Positions 11,285 through 24,065 of a stretch of 28,434 bases of DNA are shown piece after piece (position 1 is the stretch's first letter; every line of letters starts with the position of its first letter). The DNA is taken from IMG/VR virus record IMGVR_UViG_3300027710_000105, positions 1 through 28,434 of that record; one strand, 5' to 3'. The stretch is from a virus. The notes below the pieces were generated by a model. It saw nothing but the letters and a program-made list of their open reading frames with translations. It was not told the origin of the DNA and did not search any database. A program made the position numbers and the translations under genes.

Positions 11285-12700
11285 TTAAACTGAGTATCGG
11301 TCAGCCATAATCGTTTTCATCATTATACCAGTTGGTGTGAACTCAGAAGGATCTGCGCCCAAAAGACTTGCCATGATGCTTGGTGAGAATCCGCTCACTA
11401 ATGCAGTGCCGCTTTTATCTGCATTGACAGGTGCATTATCTGAACTATTTAAATTCCAAAAAACAACTTGCGGCGCAGTGTAACCGGCTTGTGCATACTT
11501 GCGTTGGATCATTTCCATTGCAGAATCATCGTGGGTTACACATTGATTAAACTGCATGTCAGAAAGGATCAACAACATCTTAGGCATGTCACTTTCAGGG
11601 ACGTTACCCTTGACTGCAACACTTAGGATCTTGTCCATAGCCTTGTGCAAGTTAGTGTCCATTGCCCATGTGCTTGATACCATTTGGTTGATCTTCTGAA
11701 CGATAGTACCCTTTAGAGTAATCAATTCAGGAGTACCACTGAAAGTCAAGAATGTGTCCTTAAACGCACCCTTGTTCTTGTCAGCAAGGTATAGACCGAG
11801 CGATACACTAACGTCCAAACATGTTACACTACCAGTTCCACCTGCTGGGCAAGTCATAGAACCAGAAACGTCTACCAATGGTAGAATGTTTGCATCGTTC
11901 ATGTAGTTAGGCAATGCATCCCATTGTGCGGTTACGTGATCCAATTCGGTCTTACCCAAAGTAGAACGGCCGTATGATGAGATTAGACCCTTCAAGACTT
12001 CATGAGGGAACACTGCCGAAGCATTGACCTTCACAGTCTTGTCACCACTTACCAACTTAGCCACATATTCAGCGAATGTAGTAGAATGACGGTTGAACGC
12101 CTTCTTGTAGATTCGTGATGCCTGTGAAGGCACATGACTGTAGTTGATGTTATCCCAATCATTCGCACACATTTGTGTTTCAACAACCTTAGTCATTGAC
12201 ACCAATTGCTTACGATATTGCTTAGGAGTCATTCCGAAGAATTCACGGATTTCACGTGCGACTTCACCCTTACGAGGAGTCCACTTTGCGGCTAAGCCGT
12301 TCTTTGCACGAAGGTTGTCACCTAGCAAAGAATATGCCTTAGCCTTAAGATCCTTGTCCTTAAAGACAAACAAGTCATCGAAACGACCTACTTCAGGGAT
12401 CTTAACTAGCAAACGTGCTGCCGCTTCTGGGTCATGCTTTTCCAAGTATGACAAGATATCACGGAACAGTTGACGTTCGCCTGCACCACCACGTGCATCA
12501 CGTGCCCACAAAGCCACACGCAAAGCGAGGTCCTTGTCTTGCACATAAGCCGCAGTGAATGCCGGGATAATGTTCTTACCACGGCTTGCACCGATATTAT
12601 AGAACAGATCAACCACTGAATTAGCGGTTGACTTACGAGCCTTCATACCATTAGCGGTACGGGCTTCTTGATTTGCGACTGCGTTTACAAATGCGTTCAT
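11285..12700 (-). CDS. Ro60-like (TROVE/DUF2828-type) RNA-binding protein with vWA domain, 471 aa
   Basis: Residues 30-270 are helical-repeat-like with the family hallmark ARDARGGAGERQLFRDILSY (67-86) and IPEVGRFDDLFVF (101-113), where Ro60/TROVE and DUF2828 proteins form the RNA-binding ring. Residues 270-471 are a von Willebrand A domain: NILPLVDVSGSM (MIDAS DxSxS at 277-281), Thr349 in WAMDTN, and LLILSDMQFN with Asp381. Ro60 proteins hold Y RNAs and misfolded RNAs; some phage members are annotated only as DUF2828. ATG 12700 follows AAAGGAAAAC; an upstream in-frame ATG at 12772 lies inside a structured RNA and is rejected. Upstream are three tandem Y-RNA-like elements, downstream a terminator. 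The TROVE/DUF2828 call is from motifs only. Confidence 0.85.
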   Translation of the reverse strand: MNAFVNAVANQEARTANGMKARKSTANSVVDLFYNIGASRGKNIIPAFTAAYVQDKDLALRVALWARDARGGAGERQLFRDILSYLEKHDPEAAARLLVKIPEVGRFDDLFVFKDKDLKAKAYSLLGDNLRAKNGLAAKWTPRKGEVAREIREFFGMTPKQYRKQLVSMTKVVETQMCANDWDNINYSHVPSQASRIYKKAFNRHSTTFAEYVAKLVSGDKTVKVNASAVFPHEVLKGLISSYGRSTLGKTELDHVTAQWDALPNYMNDANILPLVDVSGSMTCPAGGTGSVTCLDVSVSLGLYLADKNKGAFKDTFLTFSGTPELITLKGTIVQKINQMVSSTWAMDTNLHKAMDKILSVAVKGNVPESDMPKMLLILSDMQFNQCVTHDDSAMEMIQRKYAQAGYTAPQVVFWNLNSSDNAPVNADKSGTALVSGFSPSIMASLLGADPSEFTPTGIMMKTIMADRYSV

Positions 12701-13364: not shown

Positions 13365-13454
13365 TGGCAGTGAGTTAGGGATTCGAACCCTAGTGCCGTT
13401 TACACGACCATCACCTTTCCAAGATGCGCCCTTAAGCCTCTCGGGCAACTCACT
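13365..13454 (-). tRNA. tRNA-Ser(GGA)
   Basis: Class II tRNA with long variable arm; acceptor AGTGAGT/ACTCACT, anticodon loop TTGGAAA, T-loop TTCGAAT, encoded CCA. Reads UCC/UCU. Last tRNA of the array in the direction of transcription. Confidence 0.92.
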
Positions 13455-13458
13455 ATGT

Positions 13459-13548
13459 TGGCGGAAGCGGTGAGATTCGAACTCACGGGACGCTTTCACG
13501 CCCGGCGGTTTTCAAGACCGCTGCCATAGGCCACTCGACCACGCTTCC
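13459..13548 (-). tRNA. tRNA-Ser(TGA)
   Basis: Class II; perfect anticodon stem GCGGT/ACCGC with loop CTTGAAA, encoded GCCA end. Reads UCA. A second, weaker Ser(TGA) gene lies at 24066. Confidence 0.95.
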
Positions 13549-13553
13549 GTATT

Positions 13554-13629
13554 TGGCATCCCGGGTAAGCCTCGAACTTACAACCCCTGGTTTTGGAGAC
13601 CAGTGCTCTGCCAATTGAGCTACCGAGAT
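13554..13629 (-). tRNA. tRNA-Trp(CCA)
   Basis: Anticodon stem CTGGT/ACCAG, loop CTCCAAA; acceptor ATCTCGG/CCGGGAT; encoded CCA. Confidence 0.93.
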
Positions 13630-13633
13630 ATAT

Positions 13634-13855
13634 TTATGGGTTTTTTCTAATTCGTTTTAGATATTCTCTACCTACCAAGCCTGCTTCAACTTCCTGAAGT
13701 GCTGTCACAATAGGACCTGCTTTAGTATTAAGTGTAGAACGATGTCCACGTTTCAGTTCTCGTACACGGTGTGATGCAATGAGTACTAGATCAAAACGAT
13801 TACCCACCATATTAACTGCATCTTCACTGGTATATCTTACTCTGCTTTCACTCAT
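13634..13855 (-). CDS. rpoZ: RNA polymerase omega subunit homologue, 73 aa
   Basis: The sequence RYTSEDAVNMVGNRFDLVLI, then ASHRVRELKRGH and KAGPIVTALQEVEAGLVGRE, aligns over its length with bacterial omega: R(I/V)TxEDxxxxxxNRFDLVLxAxxRARxL and VTALREIExGxI are the family hallmarks. Omega binds the beta' subunit and aids polymerase assembly; it is normally about 70-90 aa, so this copy is full length though it lacks the C-terminal tail of E. coli omega. It lies between tRNA-Gly and tRNA-Trp, with AAAGAAGAT before ATG 13855. In a phage it could replace host omega and retune the polymerase (inference). Confidence 0.88.
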   Translation of the reverse strand: MSESRVRYTSEDAVNMVGNRFDLVLIASHRVRELKRGHRSTLNTKAGPIVTALQEVEAGLVGREYLKRIRKNP

Positions 13856-13879
13856 ATCTTCTTTCGTTGTTGTTAAACT

Positions 13880-13955
13880 TGGAGCGGGATATCAGGTTCG
13901 AACTGACGACCTAGTGCTTGGCAAGCACTCGCTCTACCAACTGAGCTAATCCCGC
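13880..13955 (-). tRNA. tRNA-Gly(GCC)
   Basis: Acceptor GCGGGAT/ATCCCGC, anticodon stem AGTGC/GCACT with loop TTGCCAA, T-loop TTCGAAC, encoded CCA. Reads GGC/GGU. Confidence 0.95.
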
Positions 13956-13963
13956 ATATTCTT

Positions 13964-14354
13964 TCAATACAGAGGAAGACCTTGGGCGGCCCTTCCCCTA
14001 CCTTTATTTGCGCCTCCCAGAAATTCTGTTTGGCTATGACAATTTGGACAAATAAGTCTTAAATTGTCAGGATGATCGTTCGACGGATCACCATTTATAT
14101 GATCTACATGAAGTACAAGTTTTTTGTTTTGCCAATCACTTATACCACATACTTCACATTTATAACCTCTTGCCTCAGCAAGATAATTTCTCGCTGTAGG
14201 TCTATCTATTCTCTTTTCTAGCAAACCAGAAAAGAATTTTCTTTTGTGTTCTGCTGATTTACCTTGAACAGCACATTTCATACTGCAATATTTGTTGTTA
14301 CCTTGATGGCTCCAGCGACACTCTTTCTTACAAAATCCACATATATATTTTCAC
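13964..14354 (-). pseudogene. HNH homing endonuclease with frameshift near its start
   Basis: From 14281 down, an intact HNH protein is encoded (CEVCG, DHINGDPSNDHPDNLRLICP, NCHSQ). Upstream of that ATG the same frame continues with an N-terminal zinc ribbon (ICGFCKKECRWSHQGNNKYC) but hits TGA at 14353-14351 with no ATG. A GTG at 14354-14352 with AAAGGAGT 9 nt before it is the natural start, in another frame. Adding one AT unit to the (AT)n tract at 14341-14349 would fuse the two frames. So this is a slippage mutation, a programmed event, or a sequencing error. Late box at 14375-14382. Confidence 0.7.
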
Positions 14355-14390
14355 GGTAGATTACTCCTTTAGAGTATTTATGCTCTACCG
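14354..14390 (-). promoter_or_regulatory. Late promoter inside a translation-blocking inverted repeat
   Basis: Late box CATAAATA (14382-14375) lies between arms CGGTAGA (14390-14384, minus strand) and TCTACCG (14360-14354); the second arm ends at the GTG start and the loop holds AAAGGAGT, itself able to pair with ACTC. A late RNA starting near 14369 would lack the first arm. Confidence 0.65.
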
Positions 14391-14402
14391 ATAAAAATGC
14401 GT

Positions 14403-14546
14403 TTATCTTGTAACTTTTCGTTTCAACATGATGTAGTAGTATTTAATACCACGCCATGTTGGGAACAAATTAAATTCAATAATAGGAGTAACTTCTTTCG
14501 AAATGTTTCCATAAGCACGATCAATAACATCTTTACTCTTGCTCAT
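14403..14546 (-). CDS. Hypothetical basic protein, 47 aa
   Basis: ATG 14546 follows TAGGAGTAATT. Peptide MSKSKDVIDRAYGNISKEVT, PIIEFNLFPTWRGIKYYYIM, ending LKRKVTR. Basic and aromatic-rich. It sits between tRNA-Val and the HNH gene. No family recognised; the strong ribosome-binding site supports it. Confidence 0.6.
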   Translation of the reverse strand: MSKSKDVIDRAYGNISKEVTPIIEFNLFPTWRGIKYYYIMLKRKVTR

Positions 14547-14563
14547 AATTACTCCTATGTGTT

Positions 14564-14637
14564 TGGTACCTCGTTGGAGAATTGAACTCCCGTATCCACC
14601 GTGTAAGGATGGCGTTCTACCATTAAACTACCGAGGC
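14564..14637 (-). tRNA. tRNA-Val(TAC)
   Basis: Acceptor GCCTCGG/CGAGGT-type pairing, anticodon stem CCATC/GGTGG with loop CTTACAC, T-loop TTCAATT, encoded CCA. Reads GUA. Confidence 0.93.
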
Positions 14638-14647
14638 CTAATTCTAT

Positions 14648-14827
14648 TTAACCAAGTTGGTTACTATCTTTAACTTCTGTTTGACTAGCAATTTTTTCAA
14701 ATGCTTCATCTTCGTTCTGTTGATCCTCAATCACTCTAGGGTCGGGCTTACGAAAGATTGCATCAAAGTTGTTTGCAAACTCTTGTTGACTGACACTGTA
14801 TGGTCGTGGACTAGAACCCTTGCTCAC
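14648..14827 (-). CDS. Conserved small phage protein, 59 aa
   Basis: GTG start 14827 behind GAGGAGATAAGAA. Peptide begins MSKGSSPRPYSVSQQEFANN, then FDAIFRKPDPRVIEDQQNED. The MS+G+SPRPxSVxxxEFxxNFDxIF pattern recurs in phage genomes as a hypothetical protein. GTG overlaps the stop of the upstream gene (GTGA), so the pair is co-translated. Confidence 0.75.
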   Translation of the reverse strand: MSKGSSPRPYSVSQQEFANNFDAIFRKPDPRVIEDQQNEDEAFEKIASQTEVKDSNQLG

Positions 14828-14991
14828 TTCTTATCTCCTCGACTCCCACCTGAACGTGAGTTGCTTTTTTCAATCTCAACAAAACTACGAATAAAAGCCC
14901 CGCGCACATGAGCATCACTAATCAATGCCGCGGCACGTTTAACTGATTTGGGCACTTTCACTGCTTTCGCATCATAACCTCTACATGTCAT
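14824..14991 (-). CDS. Conserved small phage protein, 55 aa
   Basis: MTCRGYDAKAVKVPKSVKRA, AALISDAHVRGAFIRSFVEI, then EKSNSRSGGSRGDKK. Highly basic with an RxFIRxFVEIExSNSRSG end; I recognise this type from T4-like phages, where it is a conserved hypothetical. Ribosome-binding site AAAGAGGAAAT. Encoded within the tRNA array as a two-gene unit with 14648-14827. Confidence 0.75.
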   Translation of the reverse strand: MTCRGYDAKAVKVPKSVKRAAALISDAHVRGAFIRSFVEIEKSNSRSGGSRGDKK

Positions 14992-15015
14992 ACTATTTCC
15001 TCTTTAAAAAATGAT

Positions 15016-15091
15016 TGGTCTCCGATGAGAGATTTGAACTCCCGCGACATGCTCCCAAAGCATGAATACTACCAGGCTATATGAATCGGAG
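15016..15091 (-). tRNA. tRNA-Pro(TGG)
   Basis: Acceptor CTCCGAT/ATCGGAG, anticodon stem CATGC/GCATG with loop TTTGGGA, encoded CCA. Reads CCA and, by wobble, other proline codons. Confidence 0.94.
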
Positions 15092-15097
15092 TTTATT

Positions 15098-15168
15098 TGG
15101 TTGCGGGGGAAGTATTCGAAACTTCTGGGCCGAGCTTATGAGACTGACCGATCGCCTGAATCCCCGCA
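15098..15168 (-). tRNA. tRNA(CAT), Met or Ile2, shortened D-arm
   Basis: Acceptor TGCGGGG/CCCCGCA and T-arm GAAGT/ACTTC are perfect; loop CTCATAA gives anticodon CAT. Only 14 nt lie between acceptor and anticodon stem (usually about 19), and the anticodon stem has one C-C mismatch. Possibly decaying. CCA encoded. Confidence 0.75.
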
Positions 15169-15171
15169 TAA

Positions 15172-15240
15172 TTTATAAATGTACTTCTTTTTCACTTACA
15201 GAGCCAGTCTTATCAGCTGGGTGTGAAACACATTTATAAA
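15172..15240 (-). ncRNA. Structured spacer RNA E1
   Basis: 11-bp inverted repeat TTTATAAATGT / ACATTTATAAA; inside, GTTTCAC/GTGAAA and CCAG/CTGG helices. Directly precedes the 5' end of tRNA(CAT). Carries the AAACACA/TGTGTTT motif shared by other spacer RNAs. The flanking 15241-15441 holds an open frame of about 50 codons (ending at 15250) without a convincing start, perhaps a gene remnant. Confidence 0.45.
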
Positions 15241-15441
15241 GTGAGACTGCTACTTACACCACATAAGCCCAATCTCTGAGTTGTTACTCTGTCCATACCC
15301 ACCTGATTTAGTCGGTAGTAAATGTCCTTTGTGATTTCTCAAGTCGCCCTTAAATAGAGCCTTGCGGTAGATCCAATGCACCGTACAGTTATCGTTACTG
15401 TAATTACGCAACCATCTTAACGTCGGTTGTCACGGGTTTCT

Positions 15442-15515
15442 TGGTGGAGGATAACAGAATCGAACTGTTGCGAAAACCTTGCAAAGGTCCCAGGCTACCA
15501 TTACATCAATCCCCC
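15442..15515 (-). tRNA. tRNA-Ala(TGC)
   Basis: Acceptor GGGGGAT/ATCCTCC, loop TTTGCAA (anticodon TGC), T-loop TTCGATT, encoded CCA. Confidence 0.93.
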
Positions 15516-15592
15516 ATATAGAAACACACTTGGTATAGTAACAAAAGCTATCACGGATGAACCCAATTTTTATCAAATATGTTTTTATATGG
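15514..15592 (-). ncRNA. Structured spacer RNA E2
   Basis: Spacer between tRNA-Leu(TAG) and tRNA-Ala. Its 5' arm starts with the CCA of tRNA-Leu (CCATATAAAAACATA) and pairs imperfectly with TGTGTTTCTATATGG just before tRNA-Ala; inner helices TTGG/CCAA and ATAG/CTAT. Confidence 0.45.
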
Positions 15593-15674
15593 TGCCCCCC
15601 AAGAGACTCGAACTCTTACACCTTTCGATACCAGAACCTAAATCTGGCGCGTCTACCAATTCCGCCAAGGGGGC
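15590..15674 (-). tRNA. tRNA-Leu(TAG)
   Basis: Class II with variable arm; acceptor GCCCCCT/GGGGGGC, anticodon stem CCAGA/TCTGG with loop TTTAGGT, encoded CCA. Reads CUA/CUN. Confidence 0.94.
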
Positions 15675-15676
15675 AA

Positions 15677-15763
15677 TTATAATATAACACACTACGAACC
15701 TCTTTCTAAGTTATGGGCCTAGCGAGTATTCCAAATGTGTTCATGTAATGTGTTATATTATAA
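15677..15763 (-). ncRNA. Structured spacer RNA E10
   Basis: 15-bp perfect inverted repeat TTATAATATAACACA / TGTGTTATATTATAA. The minus-strand promoter -10 (15762-15757) overlaps the 5' arm. A competing helix CCAAATGTGTT (15731-15741) with AACACATTTGG (15833-15843) spans the promoter region, and 15801-15835 forms a separate 12-bp hairpin. Confidence 0.45.
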
Positions 15764-15785
15764 CAGATAATTATTTATCTATCAA
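15757..15785 (-). promoter_or_regulatory. Sigma70 promoter within the tRNA array
   Basis: -35 TTGATA (15785-15780), 17-nt spacer, -10 TATAAT (15762-15757). Drives tRNA-Leu(TAG) and downstream tRNAs. Confidence 0.8.
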
Positions 15786-15840
15786 CTATTTTGGACAACT
15801 GTTTCTCATTCTGTACATTGTATAGAATGAGAAACACATT

Positions 15841-15914
15841 TGGAGCGGGGTAAGAGAATCGAACTCTTGACCGAAGATTGGAAATCTGCTGTTTTACCAT
15901 TAAACTAATCCCGC
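15841..15914 (-). tRNA. tRNA-Gly(TCC)
   Basis: Acceptor GCGGGAT/ACCCCGC, loop TTTCCAA (anticodon TCC), one C-T mismatch in the anticodon stem, encoded CCA. Its first 15 nt also encode the end (AGLV-stop) of the endonuclease at 15900-16472. Confidence 0.9.
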
Positions 15915-16472
15915 AATGTAATCCCAAGCAAGTTGTGATTTATTCAATACATATATTTTAGCATTATTTTGAGTAGCACACAACCTTACTTTTACCGAAT
16001 CTATCTTAATCAAATAATCATTTTTTGGATCAAGATAAATGTCAAATTCTGTAAGATAGAAGTCAGGTGTATAATGCCTTTGCTTTCCTGTTTCATCTAT
16101 CCATTTTAATCTTTTAGGTCTAATCCATTTGATATTATTTTTGTCCAACTCTTTAGCTAAAAGCAATTCATAGGAAGATTCTAACAATACACCATTATAT
16201 TCAAATGTTTTACGATAATTTTTACCACCAAAACCTCTTTCAATTGCTTTTGCAGATAGAAAGTTTTTAGTATCTTGTGTATGAAGGTTCGTACCACGAT
16301 TTTTGCGAGTAGCAACCATCATTTTAGATTGATCCTCTTTGGTACGTGAAGTAAAATGTTTACTACGCATACACATTTGTTTTGTAACACTGAATTTTGC
16401 AGACACTTCAGCAATAGAATGTCCTAAATCATAATATTTTTGTATCTCGGACCAGTTATATTTATTTTTCAT
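15900..16472 (-). CDS. Putative PD-(D/E)xK-type homing endonuclease, 190 aa
   Basis: Residues 8-45 form a helix-turn-helix-like start (WSEIQKYYDLGHSIAEVSAK). The C-terminal half has LLESSYELLLAKELDKNNIK (Glu), then WIRPKRLKWIDETGKQRHYT and PDFYLTEFDIYLDPKN (PDF Asp and the PKN Lys): the restriction-like E...PD...xK arrangement seen in some phage homing enzymes (Vsr/EDxHD-like). Late box GATAAATA then GATTT then ATG 16472, so leaderless late mRNA. The stop codon TAA is the one in the D-arm of tRNA-Gly(TCC), and a tRNA 5' fragment lies just upstream. Confidence 0.7.
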   Translation of the reverse strand: MKNKYNWSEIQKYYDLGHSIAEVSAKFSVTKQMCMRSKHFTSRTKEDQSKMMVATRKNRGTNLHTQDTKNFLSAKAIERGFGGKNYRKTFEYNGVLLESSYELLLAKELDKNNIKWIRPKRLKWIDETGKQRHYTPDFYLTEFDIYLDPKNDYLIKIDSVKVRLCATQNNAKIYVLNKSQLAWDYIAGLV

Positions 16473-16477
16473 AAATC

Positions 16478-16485
16478 TATTTATC
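16478..16485 (-). promoter_or_regulatory. T4-type late promoter box, leaderless spacing
   Basis: GATAAATA, 5 nt (GATTT), then ATG 16472. No ribosome-binding site. Confidence 0.7.
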
Positions 16486-16525
16486 CCAAGACTAAGGTAT
16501 TACCATTATACAATCGTGAATACGA
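16486..16525 (-). pseudogene. tRNA 5' fragment upstream of an endonuclease gene
   Basis: Minus strand CGATTGTATAATGGTAATACC resembles a tRNA acceptor end plus D-arm (compare tRNA-Thr(TGT) at 25128), broken off where the late promoter and endonuclease gene begin; no matching 3' half follows. Confidence 0.5.
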
Positions 16526-16531
16526 ACCCCG

Positions 16532-16539
16532 CATAAATA
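16532..16539 (+). promoter_or_regulatory. T4-type late promoter box, leaderless spacing
   Basis: CATAAATA, then TATTT, then ATG 16545. Confidence 0.65.
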
Positions 16540-16544
16540 TATTT

Positions 16545-16709
16545 ATGTATATATATGATGCTATCACAAAGACCGGACTTGTTATCCACTTATCAATGAG
16601 TGATGACCATACTTTTTACATTATGATATTTGATATTGACAATTTCAAATTGACCATGAAATTCTTCAATAACATTGAAACAGCACTTGCTTTTGTACAA
16701 GCATTGTAA
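16545..16709 (+). CDS. Hypothetical small protein, 54 aa
   Basis: ATG 16545 is placed 5 nt after a late box, as for several homing genes here; a longer frame upstream runs into the endonuclease promoter region and is rejected. Peptide MYIYDAITKTGLVIHLSMSD, DHTFYIMIFDIDNFKLTMKF, FNNIETALAFVQAL: alternating beta strands and a final helix. No family recognised. Ends 6 nt before the tRNA-Cys 3' end on the other strand. Confidence 0.6.
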   Translation: MYIYDAITKTGLVIHLSMSDDHTFYIMIFDIDNFKLTMKFFNNIETALAFVQAL

Positions 16710-16714
16710 CTGTT

Positions 16715-16792
16715 TGGAGCAACGGGTCAGATTTGAACTGACGGTTTTTCGGATTTGCAATCCGATGCATTGGGCCTCTCTGCCACCGTTGC
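16715..16792 (-). tRNA. tRNA-Cys(GCA)
   Basis: Acceptor GCAACGG/CCGTTGC, anticodon stem TCGGA/TCCGA with loop TTGCAAA, encoded CCA. Confidence 0.94.
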
Positions 16793-16801
16793 ATGTTGTT
16801 T

Positions 16802-16889
16802 TGGCGGAGCATGTAGGAATCGAACCTACTCACCCATTGCTGAATGATGGATTAGCAATCCATTGCCTTAACCGGTCGGCCAATGCTCC
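16802..16889 (-). tRNA. tRNA-Ser(GCT)
   Basis: Class II; acceptor GGAGCAT/ATGCTCC, anticodon stem ATGGA/TCCAT with loop TTGCTAA, encoded CCA. Reads AGC/AGU. Confidence 0.95.
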
Positions 16890-16937
16890 TTAAATTTGTT
16901 TAAAATCACCCTTAATGAACAGATTATGAACATTATT

Positions 16938-16945
16938 CATAAATA
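16938..16945 (+). promoter_or_regulatory. T4-type late promoter box, leaderless spacing
   Basis: CATAAATA, then CAATT, then ATG 16951. No ribosome-binding site. Confidence 0.7.
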
Positions 16946-16950
16946 CAATT

Positions 16951-17343
16951 ATGAAATGCTTAACTTGCTCAACCCCACTAACCGGAAGACAGAAAAAATT
17001 CTGTTCCAGTGTTTGTAAAAACGCTGATATAAACAATCGTCACAAGGACTATGCTTCACAGCGAATCAGAGGTGAATCTAGAAAACTTGAACTAATTAAA
17101 ATGAAGGGAGGATCGTGTGAAATTTGTAATTACAATCATAACTATTCCGCACTATGCTTCCATCATTTACACGATAAAAAATTCCAAATTGATATTAGAC
17201 AATGTTCTAATCGTTCCTGGGAGACACTTGTAGAAGAGGTGAACAAATGCTCACTGCTATGCCACAACTGTCACATGGAACTACACTATCCTAACAACTT
17301 GGTGCCTCCACCTGGACTCGAACCAGGAACCAACAAATTATGA
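16951..17343 (+). CDS. HNH homing endonuclease, 130 aa
   Basis: Zinc-ribbon N-terminus (CLTCSTPLTGRQKKFCSSVC), then CEICNYNHNYSALCFHHLHD (Cys pair and HH catalytic site) and CSLLCHNCHMELHYPNN (Cys pair, His). Leaderless late mRNA predicted. The frame continues past the natural-looking HYPNN end for about 13 codons (VPPPGLEPGTNKL) that are simply the antisense of tRNA-Met(CAT), and the stop TGA is in that tRNA. Opposite orientation to the array. Confidence 0.85.
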   Translation: MKCLTCSTPLTGRQKKFCSSVCKNADINNRHKDYASQRIRGESRKLELIKMKGGSCEICNYNHNYSALCFHHLHDKKFQIDIRQCSNRSWETLVEEVNKCSLLCHNCHMELHYPNNLVPPPGLEPGTNKL

Positions 17344-17376
17344 GTTTGACGCTCTAACCAATTGAGCTATAGAAGC
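17300..17376 (-). tRNA. tRNA(CAT), Met or Ile2
   Basis: Acceptor GCTTCTA/TGGAGGC (with wobbles), loop CTCATAA, T-arm CCTGG/CCAGG, encoded CCA. Overlapped by the 3' end of the plus-strand HNH gene. Confidence 0.88.
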
Positions 17377-17398
17377 GAATCCTTGCATTTAAAACCAT

Positions 17399-17426
17399 AC
17401 TATAATACACTCCCAATGCGTGTCAA
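17399..17426 (-). promoter_or_regulatory. Sigma70 promoter within the tRNA array
   Basis: -35 TTGACA (17426-17421), 16-nt spacer, -10 TATAGT (17404-17399), directly upstream of tRNA(CAT). Confidence 0.8.
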
Positions 17427-17436
17427 GCACTGTAGC

Positions 17437-17560
17437 TTTGTAGGTACACCAAGAATCACAGTTTCGAACCTGTGTAATGTAGCACTCGTCAAAGGAAACC
17501 GTTAAGTTCAAAGCCTAAGACTATCGGGCAAGCTGTGTCCCATTACGTTGACAAGAGTAT
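17437..17560 (-). ncRNA. tRNA-like or degenerate structured RNA
   Basis: Contains a T-arm-like hairpin CACAG-GTTCGAAA-CTGTG and helices GTAATG/CATTAC and GTCAA/TTGAC, but no acceptor with CCA and no anticodon arm. Either a decayed tRNA or another structured spacer. Confidence 0.35.
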
Positions 17561-17599
17561 ACTATAGTATGGTGCATGATTTCTCATGCATCATATGTT

Positions 17600-17683
17600 T
17601 GGTGCGACTGACCGGACTCGAACCGGTACGCACTAGGCGGCAGATTTTAAGTCTGCTATGGCTACCAATTACATCACAGTCGC
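17600..17683 (-). tRNA. tRNA-Leu(TAA)
   Basis: Class II; acceptor GCGACTG/CAGTCGC, anticodon stem GCAGA/TCTGC with loop CTTAAAA, encoded CCA. Its first 15 nt encode ATVM-stop of the endonuclease at 17669-18106. Confidence 0.95.
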
Positions 17684-18106
17684 ATTTTTCTTTCTACCGC
17701 CACTACGATTCAAGGCGATATTCTTTTTGTGTTCTTCACTCTTAGGTTTTCCTTTGTTTCCTGCACCGTTATTGTTTCCTGTACGACTTTGTAATCTACA
17801 AGCCTCTTCATAACCGTACTTTTCAACTTTGATATCCCAAGGGCTTTTGAAGGTGCCATTATTTTTGGCATCTTGAACATTTTCTTTTCTTGTTCCCCAG
17901 TAAAGATGTTTTGGGTTTGAACACTTGTCATTATGACAGGCGTGACACAAATCAACTTTGCTAGGCAAGTTTGTATCTAAGTACTGTGCTAATACACCTC
18001 TATGTACCGTACTATTGCCACCGCGCTCAACGCAAGGCTCTGTAAGGTCTAAGTGTTGTGTACGCACATCCCTAGATTCATTTATCCAGTTTTCAACTAA
18101 AATCAT
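17669..18106 (-). CDS. HNH homing endonuclease with NUMOD-like tail, 145 aa
   Basis: HNH_3-type core DLCHACHNDKCSNPKHLYWG then TRKENVQDAKNNGTF; C-terminal KGKPKSEEHKKNIALNRSGG is a NUMOD3-like DNA-binding segment. ATG 18106 is preferred over an in-frame TTG because TAAGGAGATTG precedes it. Late box CATAAATA at 18125-18132 places +1 just ahead of the ribosome-binding site. The final codons GCG ACT GTG ATG TAA are the 5' end of tRNA-Leu(TAA), so the tRNA provides the stop. Confidence 0.88.
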   Translation of the reverse strand: MILVENWINESRDVRTQHLDLTEPCVERGGNSTVHRGVLAQYLDTNLPSKVDLCHACHNDKCSNPKHLYWGTRKENVQDAKNNGTFKSPWDIKVEKYGYEEACRLQSRTGNNNGAGNKGKPKSEEHKKNIALNRSGGRKKNATVM

Positions 18107-18124
18107 TTTCAATCTCCTTATGTT

Positions 18125-18132
18125 TATTTATG
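18125..18132 (-). promoter_or_regulatory. T4-type late promoter box
   Basis: CATAAATA; predicted +1 near 18119 leaves a short leader with AAGGAG before ATG 18106. An 8-bp repeat (GTTTATTT/AAATAAAC) overlaps the box. Confidence 0.65.
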
Positions 18133-18192
18133 CTAAACACGAGAAAATAAACGATTTAGTGTTTACCTACGAATTTTTAAAGAACAGATGCT

Positions 18193-18221
18193 AGTATATA
18201 TCACTTTGCATTTGTTGTCAA
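18193..18221 (-). promoter_or_regulatory. Sigma70 promoter
   Basis: -35 TTGACA (18221-18216), 17-nt spacer, -10 TATACT (18198-18193). Upstream of the HNH gene and tRNA-Leu(TAA); probably the tRNA promoter displaced by the inserted gene. Confidence 0.8.
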
Positions 18222-18239
18222 TGAATTTGTAAGTAGTGT

Positions 18240-18660
18240 CACCATCGTTATAGACACCATTCACCCATTTATATAAAGCCGGCTGGGACTCGGTACGCTA
18301 CTAGGGATAGATCCAGATGATGACCACTTCATGCTCGTCCCACTCAAGCGACAAGCCGGGCAACGAACCCGCATCCTTTTACTATATTGGTAGTTCGAAC
18401 ATACCTTTATAGCGTGACTTCTCTTGCTAACACTTACAAAACTGATATGAAACACATTCCCTTACCCCGATGAAGTTATCGTTGGACAACAGGTATCTCT
18501 CCTGCTTTTCTATGATGGATGAACATGTTTCAAAACAAAATAGAAATCGGTACACATGCTAGCTGATTTGTGCTTGCACTGCACTAATAGGCAGTGAGTA
18601 GTCGCCACTCTACTTTTCCTCCGACTTCAAAACTCGATGATCGAAGACGACCAATTTAAA
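18240..18660 (-). ncRNA. Gene-free stretch with several structured RNA segments, including E4
   Basis: Hairpin CTATA-AA-GGTA..TACC-AA-TATAG (18384-18414) with a TTCGAAC loop. Element E4 (18448-18532) has imperfect arms TGAAACATGTTC/GAATGTGTTTCA and inner hairpins GCAGG/CCTGT (7-nt loop) and CGAT/ATCG. A third cluster near 18545-18650 has hairpins CACTG/CAGTG and AGTAG/CTACT. No convincing gene; a short frame ending EVVIIWIYP (stop near 18302) may be a gene remnant. Confidence 0.4.
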
Positions 18661-18714
18661 CTTTATTATATAAAATACGTATGTAATAAATACTCTATAT
18701 AATAACTTTAAATT

Positions 18715-19410
18715 ATGGAAATACAAGACATTTGCTATACACCGATTGACGCCAAAACAGTAGAAAACTTAAATGTTGATGACGTTAGAGCATGGGTTGA
18801 AGAAACTGTACCACAAACTCATATTAGTGGAACTATTGCAAAAGGTGCTCACAACACATTGAGGTCTCGCTATCCTTGGAATATTTGCTATGCTTATCTA
18901 GATCGAGCAGGAGGATGGCAAAACAATTTTGACGTTAAATTTCCAGAGCTGGCTGATAGCTTTACATCATCCTTTGGACTACAACTATCAGACATATCCG
19001 GTGTACTTTTGTTGCCAAAAAATGAATTATTTTCTGGTTTAGGAGTCTGGCATTCTGATCCTGACATAGGGGGTTTACGAATGTACCTGGAAAACAAAAA
19101 CTTTGAAAAGAATCCGTTGTATTACAAAAAATCTAAAGTTGCACGTACTGGATTGAATACATTAGGAACTGCAACTGACAATGATCCTAGATTTCACGAA
19201 GAAATGCATGTATGTAAAATACTTAAAGAAAACCAAGCATTTTATTTGAATAACATGCAAGGTGTACATAGTCCATTCATTGATTCTAGCTGCCAACGTT
19301 TTGCTGTTATTATCTCGGCAAAAAATGGTGATACATCTATCATAGAAAAGACCAAACAGCTTATCATTGATTCTGCGATAAAATACAAAGATTATGCTTT
19401 AATTTATTAA
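18715..19410 (+). CDS. 2OG-Fe(II) oxygenase-like protein, 231 aa
   Basis: Double-stranded-beta-helix hallmarks: GLGVWHSDPDIGGLRMYL (His113-x-Asp115 metal ligands), then LNNMQGVHSPFIDSSCQRFA with distal His185 and Arg195, which would bind 2-oxoglutarate. It hydroxylates an unknown substrate; similar stand-alone enzymes occur in marine and freshwater phages. Plus strand inside a minus-strand tRNA array. AATAAATA lies at 18685-18692, 22 nt before ATG; no clear ribosome-binding site. Substrate could be protein, nucleic acid or a small molecule. Confidence 0.7.
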   Translation: MEIQDICYTPIDAKTVENLNVDDVRAWVEETVPQTHISGTIAKGAHNTLRSRYPWNICYAYLDRAGGWQNNFDVKFPELADSFTSSFGLQLSDISGVLLLPKNELFSGLGVWHSDPDIGGLRMYLENKNFEKNPLYYKKSKVARTGLNTLGTATDNDPRFHEEMHVCKILKENQAFYLNNMQGVHSPFIDSSCQRFAVIISAKNGDTSIIEKTKQLIIDSAIKYKDYALIY

Positions 19411-19415
19411 TCAAT

Positions 19416-19492
19416 TGGCGCACCGTAGGGGACTCGAACCCCTGGCCTCTTGCGTGACAGGCAAGCGATCTAACCAACTGAGCTAACGGTGC
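19416..19492 (-). tRNA. tRNA-Asp(GTC)
   Basis: Acceptor GCACCGT/ACGGTGC, anticodon stem CTTGC/GCAAG with loop CTGTCAC, encoded CCA. Confidence 0.95.
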
Positions 19493-19501
19493 AAATAAAA
19501 C

Positions 19502-19576
19502 GGTAGTTGGAATCTTACTTCAACACGCTCTAGGCGTATCGGTCTGGTGGAGTTAACCACGATTCAAGCAACTACC
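19502..19576 (-). ncRNA. Novel structured RNA, family A/B, copy A
   Basis: 75 nt between tRNA-Tyr and tRNA-Asp. Outer helix GGTAGTTG/CAACTACC, inner helix GAATC/GATTC, hairpin GTGG-TTAACT-CCAC, then CAGACCGA, hairpin CGC-CTAGA-GCG, then GTTGAAGTAA. Copy B at 27522-27591 conserves the joining sequences while the inner helix and second hairpin change by compensating pairs. No CCA, no anticodon arm. Confidence 0.6.
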
Positions 19577-19582
19577 TAATCT

Positions 19583-19669
19583 TGGTGGAGACGACTGGAG
19601 TCGAACCAGTAGTGCCTTTCGGGCGGCGGATTTACAGTCCACTGGGGTTACCAATTTTCCTACATCTCC
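19583..19669 (-). tRNA. tRNA-Tyr(GTA)
   Basis: Class II; acceptor GGAGATG/CGTCTCC, loop CTGTAAA, long variable arm, encoded CCA. Confidence 0.95.
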
Positions 19670-19675
19670 AAGATT

Positions 19676-19750
19676 TGGAAGAGCTACGGGGAATCGAACC
19701 CCGCTTACAAGGATGAAAACCTTGTGTCCTAACCGATAGACGATAGCTCC
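19676..19750 (-). tRNA. tRNA-Glu(TTC)
   Basis: Anticodon stem CAAGG/CCTTG with loop TTTTCAT; T-arm CGGGG/CCCCG; acceptor GGAGCTA/TAGCTCT; encoded CCA. Confidence 0.94.
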
Positions 19751-19760
19751 ATAATAAAAC

Positions 19761-19842
19761 GATACACTAGCCGACCCCGGGATTTTAACCCAGTATTCAT
19801 ATTAGTTTTACACGAGTTTTACGCTCGGTCAATTAGTGTATC
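19761..19842 (-). ncRNA. tRNA-like structured RNA with extra outer helix
   Basis: Outer 9-bp helix GATACACTA/TAGTGTATC; inside, TTGACC/GGTCGG, a 7-nt-loop hairpin CGAG-CGTAAAA-CTCG and a T-arm CTGGG-TTAAAAT-CCCGG. Lacks CCA and a proper D-arm. Confidence 0.45.
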
Positions 19843-19845
19843 AAA

Positions 19846-20100
19846 AGATGATTCACTGCACTCATTTCCTTAGATCGCTCGGTGCAGTGAATGAAATCAT
19901 ATAGAAACACATAAAAGCAATACTAACCTGCAATTCACCGCCTCTCTCGGACTTGTTAAAAAACTGCCGATTGCGTAACTTAGCTGGACTTTCAAACTAA
20001 TATGCGTTTTTATATGATTCCTCGCTACACGTTCTTTCACAAGATTGTGGACTGTTATCACTCAGCATCATTATCGTGCTTTGTGTTGTCTATGCGAGGA
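19846..20100 (-). ncRNA. Tandem structured RNAs (hairpin, E5, and a third element)
   Basis: No gene here. 19851-19892 is an 11-bp hairpin (ATTCACTGCAC/GTGCAGTGAAT). 19896-20018 (E5) has arms ATCATATA/TATATGAT next to the AAACACA motif. 20019-20100 has arms TCCTCGC/GCGAGGA. Each could be a separate processed RNA between tRNAs. Confidence 0.4.
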
Positions 20101-20165
20101 TATCACATTTTATAAATTTTTAATGAACTGTTAGCAACTACTCTATCATTTGTTGCTATGTGTCT

Positions 20166-20194
20166 ATTATAACACCGTTTGAATTAATTGTCAA
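20166..20194 (-). promoter_or_regulatory. Sigma70 promoter, perfect consensus
   Basis: -35 TTGACA (20194-20189), 17-nt spacer, -10 TATAAT (20171-20166). Drives the structured RNAs and tRNAs Glu, Tyr, Asp. Just upstream, 20199-20244 forms a 10-bp hairpin TTTGTTTCAG/CTGAAACAAA. Confidence 0.9.
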
Positions 20195-20268
20195 GAACTT
20201 TGTTTCAGTGCCGTTGCATATGCGGTGGACCTATCTGAAACAAACTCTTTTTCTCAACTCATGCTATG

Positions 20269-20297
20269 ATTGTATCATAAGCACCATTTATTGTCAA
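20269..20297 (-). promoter_or_regulatory. Sigma70 promoter
   Basis: -35 TTGACA (20297-20292), 17-nt spacer, -10 TACAAT (20274-20269). Upstream, TGTTGTA-GAAA-TACAACA (20308-20325) repeats the GAAA-loop hairpin of the terminator at 10213. Confidence 0.8.
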
Positions 20298-20326
20298 ATT
20301 TTATCTTGTTGTATTTCTACAACAGA

Positions 20327-20438
20327 ACCAAATTAAAACACACTATGAGAATCACACTTCCCAAGTTCTCACGCTTGGTTACAACTAGAAGTTACAGACA
20401 GATTCGGCTGTCCTGTGAGTAATGTGTTTTAATTTGGT
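20327..20438 (-). ncRNA. Structured spacer RNA E6
   Basis: 16-bp perfect inverted repeat ACCAAATTAAAACACA / TGTGTTTTAATTTGGT. The 5' arm begins with the ACCA end of tRNA-Arg(TCT). Inside are helix TCACA/TGTGA and three hairpins (GACAG/CTGTC, AACT/AGTT, CCAAG/CTTGG), a cloverleaf-like layout. Confidence 0.55.
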
Positions 20439-20509
20439 CCGGGGTACAGGAATCGAACCTGTATCGACTGCTTAGAAGGCAGCTATATTATCCATTATAT
20501 TAACCCCAG
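20435..20509 (-). tRNA. tRNA-Arg(TCT)
   Basis: Acceptor CTGGGGT/ACCCCGG, loop CTTCTAA, T-loop TTCGATT, encoded CCA. Reads AGA. Confidence 0.94.
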
Positions 20510-20518
20510 ATAAATTTC

Positions 20519-21106
20519 TTACTTGCCCCTATTGTAGCAGATTGATGAATTATTGTCAAGCCCTCTATCACGGAGAATTTTATTTCTTCTTTTGTAAATT
20601 GCCGCGTTAGAAATTCCTAACATATTCTCCAACTCAGATATTCCATGCTTACTCATTAAGTCGATAAGGTCAATCTTATCCCAATCAACCTTGCGTCTGT
20701 TTGTTGTAGCACACGTAGGGGAACAGAAACTATTTGTAATAGGTTTATCTGAGCCACATACAGGACAAGAATCATATTCTTGTATTTTTTTAATAGAAGT
20801 AAATTCTTCATTAAAGATAGCGTGTTGTTCAGGTAACTCTCTTAGACCTGCATGAATCTCACTATGGCAATTGTGGCAAACTAAGATGCATTTTTTTAAT
20901 TCACCAACTACTTTATCCCACGTTTTAGGATTGGCTCTTAACCTACCAAACGCTAATTCTTTTTGTGTCGGATCTATATGATGGAAAGCCAATCCCTCTT
21001 TACATGTATCGTAACCACAGCATTGACATTTGCCCCCCATAGCTTCCACCATACGCTCTTTAGTGCGGTGACGCCATGCTTTAACTCTATTTGATGATAT
21101 TGACAT
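20519..21106 (-). CDS. HNH homing endonuclease with C-terminal zinc ribbon, 195 aa
   Basis: HNH core CQCCGYDTCKEGLAFHHIDP and CILVCHNCHSEIHAGL; then CPVCGSDKPITNSFCSPTC zinc ribbon; and KIDLIDLMSKHGISELENML, GISNAAIYKRRNKI helix-turn-helix. Start ATG 21106 behind AGAGG. Late-only control is predicted (see 21111-21156). The last 13 codons (to RGK-stop) cover the complete promoter of tRNA-Arg(TCT), so the 3' end of the gene runs through tRNA control sequence. Confidence 0.88.
   Translation of the reverse strand: MSISSNRVKAWRHRTKERMVEAMGGKCQCCGYDTCKEGLAFHHIDPTQKELAFGRLRANPKTWDKVVGELKKCILVCHNCHSEIHAGLRELPEQHAIFNEEFTSIKKIQEYDSCPVCGSDKPITNSFCSPTCATTNRRKVDWDKIDLIDLMSKHGISELENMLGISNAAIYKRRNKILRDRGLDNNSSICYNRGK
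20531..20559 (-). promoter_or_regulatory. Sigma70 promoter of tRNA-Arg, inside an HNH gene
   Basis: -35 TTGACA (20559-20554), 17-nt spacer, -10 TACAAT (20536-20531), entirely within the final codons of the HNH gene. Confidence 0.85.
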
Positions 21107-21110
21107 AAGA

Positions 21111-21156
21111 TATAACCTCTAACCTTCATATCTATTTATACAAAGTAGAGGTTATA
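21111..21156 (-). promoter_or_regulatory. Late promoter inside a translation-blocking inverted repeat
   Basis: Perfect late box TATAAATA (21140-21133) between 11-bp arms TATAACCTCTA (21156-21146) and TAGAGGTTATA (21121-21111). The downstream arm contains the AGAGG ribosome-binding site. Late RNA (+1 near 21127) lacks the upstream arm. Confidence 0.8.
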
Positions 21157-21165
21157 GTTATATAT

Positions 21166-21244
21166 TGGCTCCGGATGTGAGATTCGAACTCACCTAACCA
21201 GTGATTAACAGTCACGCCCATGCACCTAGCTCGGGTTTTCCGGA
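21166..21244 (-). tRNA. tRNA-Asn(GTT)
   Basis: Loop CTGTTAA; acceptor TCCGGA paired, last pair A-A; T-arm GTGAG/CTCAC; encoded CCA. Confidence 0.9.
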
Positions 21245-21252
21245 ATAAAATT

Positions 21253-21328
21253 TGGTGCCCACACCATGATTCGAACACGGCACCTACGCATTACAAGTGC
21301 GTTGCTCTACCAAATGAGCTATGTGGGC
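21253..21328 (-). tRNA. tRNA-Thr(TGT)
   Basis: Acceptor GCCCACA/TGTGGGC, anticodon stem ACGCA/TGCGT with loop CTTGTAA, encoded CCA. Reads ACA. Confidence 0.95.
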
Positions 21329-21346
21329 GTCTTTTTATTTAACTGA

Positions 21347-21375
21347 AGTATATCACAACGAAACTTTTTTGTCAA
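21347..21375 (-). promoter_or_regulatory. Sigma70 promoter
   Basis: -35 TTGACA (21375-21370), 17-nt spacer, -10 TATACT (21352-21347), driving tRNA-Thr and tRNA-Asn. Confidence 0.85.
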
Positions 21376-21394
21376 GCCTCATTGTGATATCTTC

Positions 21395-21955
21395 CTAAGA
21401 AAGCAAGATTCTCGAATGCTTCGGGACACCTGATAGCAAGTATTCCATTTGATCTGCTAGGATCGTGCGATGTTGTAGAATCATGTTTTCGTAATGGTTG
21501 GGTGCATACGGTGCGTACAGTAGTTCCATACGTGCTTCTTTCAAAGACTTATGGCCCTTCTTGCTGTTACAATCCTTACACGCAGTAACTACGTTCATCC
21601 AAGTATTTTCGCCACCATGATACTTTGGTACAACATGGTCACGGCTTAGATTGTTATAGTTGGGATGATGCTCTCCGCAATATGCACACACGTACCTATC
21701 ACGACCAAACAATGTTCGGTTAGTAAGTGCTACAGTAGTATGCTTATGAGGGTTAAAACTATGACCCTTAATTGCAATTATTGAAGGAGTTTCTAGGTAG
21801 CTTTCAGTTCCGTCATTTTGAATTCCCCCGCGGTACTTAGCCACAATTTCACCCATTGACCATGCTACTGAATCAGTTGCGTGGTAGGCGATTGCGTCAT
21901 CGTATGAGATCCACTGACGGGGAACTCCTGAGATATCTAATGCTAGAACGGACAT
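21395..21955 (-). CDS. HNH endonuclease (HNH_5-type), 186 aa
   Basis: N-terminal LALDISGVPRQWISYDDAIA, middle RDRYVCAYCGEHHPNYNNLS then RDHVVPKYHGGENTWMNVVT and ACKDCNSKKGHKSLKEARME. This matches the widespread cellular and phage HNH_5 family (CxYCG, SRDHVxPxSRGG, NVVxACxxCNxKKG). It has a normal leader with CAAAGGAGTATAGC and no late box, so it behaves as a resident gene, not like the invading HNH genes. Possible role in DNA processing or packaging (inference). Confidence 0.85.
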   Translation of the reverse strand: MSVLALDISGVPRQWISYDDAIAYHATDSVAWSMGEIVAKYRGGIQNDGTESYLETPSIIAIKGHSFNPHKHTTVALTNRTLFGRDRYVCAYCGEHHPNYNNLSRDHVVPKYHGGENTWMNVVTACKDCNSKKGHKSLKEARMELLYAPYAPNHYENMILQHRTILADQMEYLLSGVPKHSRILLS

Positions 21956-22000
21956 GCTATACTCCTTTGCGTTACTGTCTACATCTATTTAATGCCTTGA

Positions 22001-22075
22001 TGGAGGGACATGAGAGATTCGAACTCCCGACCTTTGGTTTCGAAGACCAAGACTCTTCCTCTGAGTTAATGTCCC
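22001..22075 (-). tRNA. tRNA-Arg(TCG)
   Basis: Acceptor GGGACAT/ATGTCCC, anticodon stem TTGGT/ACCAA with loop CTTCGAA, encoded CCA. Reads CGA. Confidence 0.94.
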
Positions 22076-22082
22076 ATATTCT

Positions 22083-22111
22083 ATTATATGACAAACACCA
22101 TTATTTGTCAA
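22083..22111 (-). promoter_or_regulatory. Sigma70 promoter, perfect consensus
   Basis: -35 TTGACA (22111-22106), 17-nt spacer, -10 TATAAT (22088-22083), placing +1 a few nt before tRNA-Arg(TCG). Confidence 0.9.
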
Positions 22112-22120
22112 GTTGTTGTG

Positions 22121-22651
22121 TCAATCTGCTGAGGGGAAATTACTATCTAAAAATTTTATAGCATCGTTCATTGTAAACGGTCTAGTAAAACTTATTGAAA
22201 CAAGATATCGCATCTCATTTGAGAAATTAAAACCTGTATGCCACTCAGATCCATTGAACAAATACATAGAGTTTGGCTTATATTTCAATGGTTTGATATT
22301 GGGTATGTGACCAGGACCCAAACTTTTGTTGTTTTTATCACCGAACAATGTGTAACTGTTGTCAAAACAATTTAATAATACACTCATTGACGCATTTCTA
22401 TCGTAATCACGATGCCAATGATAACTAGTATTTGGTTCTAATCGTTGAATATAGAGGCGTTCTGGTTCAACAAAATTATCTATCAACATTTTAGTCTTGG
22501 GGTTATCATTGAATATAGACGCAGGAATTCTGAGTGCCCATTCAACGTGGTTGACTATACGATACCAATCGTCAGGGGATGCATCGTTCAGCATAGACCA
22601 CAGACTATCCATAGTCTGTTGTGTTAATGTTTCAAATTCTTTAAAATACAT
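22121..22651 (-). CDS. 2OG-Fe(II) oxygenase-like protein, 176 aa
   Basis: SYHWHRDYDRNASMSVLLNC carries His80-x-Asp82, followed by PNSMYLFNGSEWHTGFNFSN and EMRYLVSISFTRPF with His138 and Arg148, the HxD...H...R set of 2-oxoglutarate oxygenases related to aspartyl/asparaginyl hydroxylase. Distinct from the 18715 gene but the same fold class. Late-type box ACTAAATA (22663-22656), 4 nt, then ATG 22651: leaderless late mRNA predicted. Substrate unknown. Confidence 0.78.
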   Translation of the reverse strand: MYFKEFETLTQQTMDSLWSMLNDASPDDWYRIVNHVEWALRIPASIFNDNPKTKMLIDNFVEPERLYIQRLEPNTSYHWHRDYDRNASMSVLLNCFDNSYTLFGDKNNKSLGPGHIPNIKPLKYKPNSMYLFNGSEWHTGFNFSNEMRYLVSISFTRPFTMNDAIKFLDSNFPSAD

Positions 22652-22655
22652 CAGT

Positions 22656-22663
22656 TATTTAGT
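22656..22663 (-). promoter_or_regulatory. T4-type late promoter box (CTAAATA variant), leaderless spacing
   Basis: ACTAAATA, ACTG, ATG 22651. No ribosome-binding site upstream. Confidence 0.55.
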
Positions 22664-22688
22664 GTTGTATTTTACTAAATTGAATTAT

Positions 22689-22767
22689 TGGTACCCCCTC
22701 TCGGAGTCGAACCGAGAACACTCTTCCTTTTGAGAGAAGCGACTTTGCCAGATTTGTCCAAGGGGGC
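22689..22767 (-). tRNA. tRNA-Leu(CAA), copy 1
   Basis: Acceptor GCCCCCT/AGGGGGT, anticodon stem CTTCT/GGAAG with loop CTCAAAA, T-arm CTCGG/CCGAG, encoded CCA. The variable region is only about 6 nt, unusual for leucine. Nearly identical body to the copy at 27154. Confidence 0.85.
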
Positions 22768-22768
22768 A

Positions 22769-22844
22769 TGGTGGCTACAGCTGGACTCGAACCAGCAACA
22801 CAAGAATTTTCAGTCCTCTGCTCTACCATTGGAGCTATGTAGCC
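22769..22844 (-). tRNA. tRNA-Phe(GAA)
   Basis: Acceptor GGCTACA/TGTAGCC, loop CTGAAAA, T-arm GCTGG/CCAGC, encoded CCA. One base from the next tRNA. Confidence 0.93.
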
Positions 22845-22845
22845 A

Positions 22846-23019
22846 TTATTTTGTTTGCGGAATCTTTCTGAGACTATCTAGTTTCACTAGACACTCACGC
22901 TGAGTTTCCATTCTGAACACACGCAGATAATCTACGCCGTCAATCTTTTGAATGTCCTTCAGATTTTTACAGAAGAACTTTTCTTTGTTTCTCATGTTTT
23001 CAAAATAAACTGTTTTCAT
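22846..23019 (-). CDS. Hypothetical protein, 57 aa
   Basis: MKTVYFENMRNKEKFFCKNL, KDIQKIDGVDYLRVFRMETQ, RECLVKLDSLRKIPQTK. A basic, mixed alpha/beta protein with a KDIxxIDGVDYLRVFR strand. Strong ribosome-binding site CAAGGAGAA; start 1 nt after the stop of the 30-aa gene; its stop is 2 nt before tRNA-Phe. Recognised as a phage small-protein type; no function. Confidence 0.75.
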   Translation of the reverse strand: MKTVYFENMRNKEKFFCKNLKDIQKIDGVDYLRVFRMETQRECLVKLDSLRKIPQTK

Positions 23020-23020
23020 T

Positions 23021-23113: not shown

Positions 23114-23128
23114 TTATTATCTCCTTGT

Positions 23129-23203: not shown

Positions 23204-23208
23204 GTGTT

Positions 23209-23908: not shown

Positions 23909-23912
23909 ACTA

Positions 23913-23920: not shown

Positions 23921-23924
23921 CAAT

Positions 23925-23975: not shown

Positions 23976-23984
23976 ATAAAATTT

Positions 23985-24059: not shown

Positions 24060-24065
24060 ATATGT

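Follow-up and report, generated by a model that had tools for sequence, protein, structure and literature searches.

A phage-encoded RNA polymerase omega subunit within the tRNA array of a T4-related jumbo phage

Bacteriophages are known to modify, cap or re-target the RNA polymerase (RNAP) of their hosts, or to bring their own enzyme. No description of an exchangeable core subunit supplied by a phage was found. Phage T4 adds factors to the host enzyme and modifies its subunits (gp55, gp33, AsiA, MotA, Alt/Mod, Alc), and supplies no core subunit. The phages described here differ from T4 in carrying a gene for the omega subunit; they probably share with T4 the use of the core enzyme of the host, and they too encode a gp55-type late sigma factor. 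The phiKZ/AR9-type phages are likewise jumbo phages with RNAP-subunit genes. They encode beta/beta'-like subunits, whereas none was found in 12 records of omega phages. The small subunit bS21 is, like omega, an exchangeable part of a host machine that is encoded by large freshwater phages, and the same swap logic has been proposed for it. However, it acts on ribosomes, the hosts predicted for the published phages are Bacteroidetes, and omega is not mentioned (PMC9723584). Bacterial RpoZ/omega (PF01192, TIGR00690) shares the fold, the length class and the core motifs with the phage protein, the closest of the sampled bacterial omegas being about 50% identical. In contrast to RpoZ, the phage omega is phage-encoded, has a remodelled N-terminus and replacements of R52, K45 and A27, and forms a long-stemmed clade of its own.

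The omega gene and its place in the tRNA array

The window, i.e. the whole stretch of DNA analysed, comprises 28,434 nucleotides (IMG/VR record IMGVR_UViG_3300027710_000105, positions 1 to 28,434). The following features surround the omega gene:

13634-13855, minus strand: phage RNA polymerase omega gene, 73 aa, ATG to TAA (family profiles, PDB sequence and fold searches)
13858-13865, minus strand: Shine-Dalgarno-like purine stretch GAAAGAAG, just 5' of the omega ATG (sequence read)
13554-13629, minus strand: tRNA-Trp(CCA), directly downstream of omega (ARAGORN)
13880-13955, minus strand: tRNA-Gly(GCC), directly upstream of omega (ARAGORN)
13365-28362, minus strand: tRNA array holding omega; 32 tRNAs (ARAGORN), interspersed with HNH-type and further ORFs

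The ORF codes for a genuine omega subunit of RNA polymerase, belonging to a clade of T4-related jumbo phages. Its product is MSESRVRYTSEDAVNMVGNRFDLVLIASHRVRELKRGHRSTLNTKAGPIVTALQEVEAGLVGREYLKRIRKNP. An initial annotation had proposed a phage-encoded omega with intact core motifs; NRFDLVL and VTALQEVEAG both occur in the 73-aa product, and the ORF spans exactly 13634-13855. The strand had been left unstated and is in fact minus, the plus strand across the same positions being interrupted by stops. The protein scores 43.7 bits against Pfam RNA_pol_Rpb6 (PF01192; cut-off 26, E 2.8e-11) and 36.2 bits against NCBIfam TIGR00690 rpoZ (cut-off 23.6). Both curated cut-offs are exceeded, so that a chance ORF is excluded. 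Omega chains were matched by phmmer in the PDB at E-values down to 7e-11, and a profile search returned E. coli omega at E 4.6e-14. An AlphaFold model (pLDDT 82.7) yielded RNAP omega chains as top PDB matches in Foldseek, the first with probability 1.00 and, for a protein of this small size, an E-value of only 2.7e-3. Thus, curated cut-offs, PDB sequences and fold agree with the identity first proposed. The omega core (NRFDL, A23, R26, ALxE) and the omega fold are both present.

Host-type polymerase subunits had been called rare in phages, and for omega the databases agree. Among 50,697 phage records, no phage omega was found beyond apparent bacterial contaminants, and PHROGs v4 contains no family matching the window omega. 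One annotated region with an rpoZ match was read and showed the context gmk-rpoZ-spoT; it was rejected as apparent contamination. The remaining rpoZ records are named as Salmonella genomes, or are tiny or unverified and unannotated, and look contaminated as well. No paper describing a phage omega was found in the open-access literature searched. The main text of a huge-phage survey lists 'RNA Pol' among phage-encoded functions and does not name omega.

As initially claimed, the gene is located inside the tRNA array, between tRNA-Gly(GCC) and tRNA-Trp(CCA). It ends 4 nt before the tRNA-Trp gene, close to the 3' end of the array, all 32 tRNAs of which are on the minus strand. This place is conserved. 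A first scan of viral contigs detected 63 omega loci with 63-100% identity. Over 60 loci in IMG/VR carry omega relatives, which almost always lie within a tRNA array and precede tRNA-Trp. Trp(CCA) comes next downstream in 52 relatives, out of 53 that have any downstream tRNA at the locus. On the upstream side, where 60 relatives have a tRNA, the nearest is Gly(GCC) for 36 of them and Val(TAC) for 23. Most relatives also possess a similar Shine-Dalgarno-like stretch, as seen on comparison of the upstream sequences. The contaminant-like rpoZ matches in public phage records might suggest that the window omega is likewise host DNA or an assembly artefact. With the same gene and tRNA context recurring at these viral loci, and a phage clade devoid of bacterial omegas, the probability of an artefact is practically negligible.

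Other genes occur in and near the array. Two overlapping small ORFs (14648-14827 and 14824-14991, minus strand; 59 and 55 aa) between tRNAs have no Pfam or PHROG match. A tRNA-like gene at 24070-24157 (minus strand) was not called by ARAGORN and reached 35.9 bits with the tRNA-Sec model (cut-off 47). Its anticodon loop, CUUGAAA, would suit either tRNA-Ser(UGA), in a form whose variable arm is long, or tRNA-Sec, the former being more likely. Weak matches to the Y RNA-like YrlA were obtained at 25772-25885 and 23149-23283 (minus strand; 28.8 and 24.0 bits, gathering score 69). They may be tRNA-derived chance matches, since YrlA has a tRNA-like part, yet the record also encodes a Ro-like protein. 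This 471-aa protein (11285-12700, minus strand) with DUF2828 and DUF7788 adjoins the 3' end of the array and resembles the Ro60/TROVE type. It matches phrog_850, 'RNA-binding protein', at E 7e-141, and has relatives in 676 phage records; no match was found among the ORFs of a related 348.7-kb phage contig (G003, the L049 record).

In about 11 relatives, a nucleosidase gene (PF01048, PNP/UDP-phosphorylase superfamily) overlaps the omega stop codon by 8 nt, for instance:

L044, 8215-8757: PF01048 nucleosidase gene overlapping omega
L008, 2231-2773: PF01048 nucleosidase gene overlapping omega; also at other loci

A functional link between omega and the nucleosidase was considered and dropped, because the adjacency is limited to part of the relatives and three others carry the nucleosidase gene at tRNA-Trp, away from omega.

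The phage omega family and its carriers

The family was assembled from the best 80 of 256 relatives found in an alignment-based scan, the other 176 of which may include bacterial DNA. Divergent omegas were added from two further scans, phage gene content being assumed for some of the divergent contigs. Phage omega is under strong purifying selection. The median Nei-Gojobori dN/dS is 0.14 over 589 non-independent pairs (5-95% range 0.07-0.25). These values bear on the reading of omega as a mere passenger, without a part in transcription, of a mobile tRNA/homing-endonuclease array. The array does abound in HNH-type ORFs and small variable genes, as such a reading would have it. However, the selection data speak against it, as do the fixed position on divergent contigs and the retained core residues, and mere cargo is very improbable.

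The phage omegas form one clade with branch supports of 100/99 in a first and 100/100 in a second tree. In the first tree, the stem measures 1.77 substitutions per site and no bacterial omega falls inside the clade. A single long-stemmed clade fits one old acquisition of omega. Phylogeny had been expected to name the donor; the clade is well supported, but the trees, built on 74-78 columns, settle no bacterial sister and name no donor. Most phage omegas, though not all, tend towards betaproteobacteria in local alignment scores. The scans that gave the closest bacterial omegas covered Gammaproteobacteria as defined by GTDB, with the former betaproteobacteria included, and the first of these bacterial scans had patterns biased to gammaproteobacteria.

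The window is assigned to a phage, since it stems from an IMG/VR record and shows synteny, over its left half, with the 202-209 kb region of the T4-type contig G003. The record represents part of a T4-related jumbo phage, a very large phage from a lake. G003 encodes homologues of the T4-type proteins gp41, gp43, gp44, gp46, gp47 and UvsX, and a late sigma factor (phrog_12791, E 1.6e-70). Its large terminase, an ORF picked by eye whose matches are annotated as terminase, has Sinorhizobium phage Phosso, Agrobacterium phage Atu_ph07 and Pseudomonas PA5oct-like phages as nearest cultured relatives (about 50% identity). A Gram-negative porin of G003 found matches in the plasmid collection only in Burkholderiales, which makes a Burkholderiales host likely. 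The host-type genes of G003 (porin, DnaK-like, ClpX, ClpA-like, DnaJ) are located at 27986-28891, 239518-241464, 241737-242942 and 296296-299394. A bS21 gene is present in 6 of 12 omega-phage records. One 524-kb IMG/VR record harbors two different omega/tRNA arrays far apart (L005, L042). With two arrays and two omegas, it may be a joined bin, possibly of two phages.

The probable polymerase partner of phage omega

Neither PF00623 (RNA_pol_Rpb1_2) nor PF00562 (Rpb2_6) was detected in 12 omega-phage records of up to 524 kb, which are possibly incomplete; 14 of 14 control genomes were positive. On this count, the omega phages were not placed among phages with a multisubunit RNAP of their own. 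Sigma70_r2 was likewise found in 0 of the 12 records. Five of 16 records encode a gp55-type late sigma factor (phrog_12791), and the four longest, each above 300 kb, are among these five. AsiA, MotA and gp33 gave no sequence match in the 348.7-kb G003. The minus strand of the array, which is the coding strand, contains eight sigma-70-type promoter matches of at least 11/12, with 0.28 expected from dinucleotide shuffles, and the plus strand contains none. The one relevant to omega is:

15757-15785, minus strand: nearest strong sigma-70-type promoter upstream of omega, TTGATA-17-TATAAT, TG-extended (consensus match only)

Near-perfect sigma-70 promoters, several of them TTGACA-17-TATAAT, recur on the minus strand throughout both window halves; the plus strand has none of comparable strength. 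With no beta/beta' found, a T4-type late sigma factor and sigma-70 promoters, the host polymerase is the likely target of omega, and the enzyme used with it is likely the host's.

Dependence on the host enzyme also bears on a hostile role. Dominant-lethal omega mutants of E. coli associate more tightly with alpha2-beta-beta', reduce the binding of sigma and halt initiation (PMC7700224). A phage omega might likewise outbind host omega on core RNAP and stop transcription initiation of the host. However, the phage itself appears to depend on host RNAP, as judged from its sigma-70-type promoters, its gp55-type late sigma and the lack of detected beta/beta' genes. A general poison would be self-defeating, unless the late sigma escapes it, and poisoning is improbable.

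Altered residues and the possible role of phage omega

Positions with at least 97% invariance among 107 distinct proteobacterial omegas were compared, in one alignment, with those of 65 distinct phage omegas. L19, L21, A23, R26, R28, A50, L51 and E53 are retained in 63-65 of the 65 phage omegas, and N15, R16 and F17 in 51-60. R52 occurs in none, being replaced by Q, E, M, K or L, and K45 is likewise absent from all 65 (mostly G), although both residues are invariant across the 107 bacterial omegas. A27 is found in a single sequence (mostly V), and D8 in 12. The changes K45 to G, A27 to V and V6 to S are phage-only and near-invariant. Between the start methionine and the equivalent of A2-R3, the main phage clade carries four residues, usually [ST]-[EQ]-S-R. 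In the window omega, this extension contains no start codon, and the Shine-Dalgarno-like stretch precedes the upstream ATG. The extension is followed by A/V-R-Y-T in the main clade, i.e. the A-R-x-T segment is largely retained. Divergent phage omegas show PRIS, PGRT, PRQT or GLT in the N-terminal segment, or lack it. A start of MAR[VIL]T from residue 1 occurs in 107 of 107 bacterial rows, most of which were trimmed to this motif and have an assumed start, and it is lacking in phage omegas.

These differences have to be set against a plain supply of spare omega. Omega is a latch or chaperone of beta' (PMC7700224), and G003 encodes DnaJ and ClpX, identified by Pfam, and DnaK and ClpA, read by eye. 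An ordinary spare omega might stabilize beta' folding or RNAP in a long infection, alongside these phage homologues. However, the same few sites set the phage omegas apart from all 107 proteobacterial ones, which would be needless in a plain spare, and this alternative is possible yet doubtful.

The N-terminus matters for the alarmone ppGpp. In E. coli, ppGpp touches the omega main chain at A2, R3 and V4 with the terminal phosphate of its 3' diphosphate (PMC10191844). RNAP with an omega lacking residues 2-5 binds ppGpp at background level only (PMC7676912). Given these contacts and the changed phage N-terminus, an altered Site 1 is a reasonable prediction, and the sequences suggest such an alteration in phage omega. 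On the other hand, Site 1 may survive, since A/V-R-Y-T is largely retained in the main clade. The loss of R52 was rejected as proof of a lost Site 1 and is suggestive only; in the Gram-positive controls, the position is E in B. subtilis, while mycobacterial omega retains R. No role of R52 itself was found in the accessible literature.

The only ppGpp site to which omega contributes is Site 1, whose role in E. coli is the control of elongation and of transcription-coupled repair. Site 1 is dispensable for the stringent response of E. coli, which runs via the DksA-dependent Site 2 (PMC10191844). An omega swap alone would therefore not escape stringent control at initiation. The initial annotation had suggested that phage omega counters ppGpp control. 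The remodelled N-terminus and the loss of R52 in 65 of 65 phage omegas do suggest an altered Site 1; the idea needs correction with regard to stringent control at initiation, which a swap alone would leave in force through Site 2. A tentative and rather unlikely version holds that the swapped omega, with its contact segment displaced and R52 lost, would make host RNAP respond less to ppGpp at Site 1. Transcription of the long tRNA array and of the late genes would then escape ppGpp-induced pausing and backtracking.

The favoring of phage promoters, also suggested initially, has a precedent by analogy. GafA of Rhodobacter activates gene-transfer-agent genes by contacting omega directly (PMC9638019). 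There too, omega is a control point for virus-like genes, but the activator contacts host omega, whereas the omega phages carry omega themselves. Loss of omega redistributes RNAP within the prophages of E. coli (PMC5811629). On host RNAP, phage omega could offer a surface to a phage activator, to which K45 to G, A27 to V and V6 to S might contribute, and promoter choice rather than the ppGpp response would change. The phage omega has no extra domain, which weighs against this docking platform, and the proposal is speculative, on the unlikely side.

The preferred and probable reading is broader: phage omega would be made early and swapped into host RNAP, altering either Site 1 or activator docking. 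The promoters suggest that the sigma-70 holoenzyme of the host would transcribe the gene early on, together with the tRNA array. The conserved core and the lack of detected phage beta/beta' genes suggest that phage omega binds host beta', replacing host omega or beside it. The replacement, proposed initially, is plausible in view of the host-type promoters in the array and of the beta/beta' genes not found. An infection-specific core enzyme would result, later to be used with the gp55-type late sigma of the phage. The constant differences (N-terminus, R52, K45, A27 to V) most likely change the function of the bound omega. The effect would probably be a weakened or altered ppGpp Site 1, and hence altered ppGpp-induced pausing, or changed contacts with activators. 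The gain from a swap may be small, since omega is non-essential in E. coli (PMC7700224). The likelihoods given are not exclusive, several alternatives sharing with the preferred reading the first step, in which omega joins host RNAP.

If true, this would be the first known exchange of a core subunit of host RNAP by a phage, within the literature searched. The phage omegas are natural variants that may separate the folding role of omega from its roles in ppGpp binding and activator docking, which are still poorly understood. If omega joins host RNAP, the strategy of swapping a small subunit, proposed for bS21 in ribosomes, would extend to transcription.
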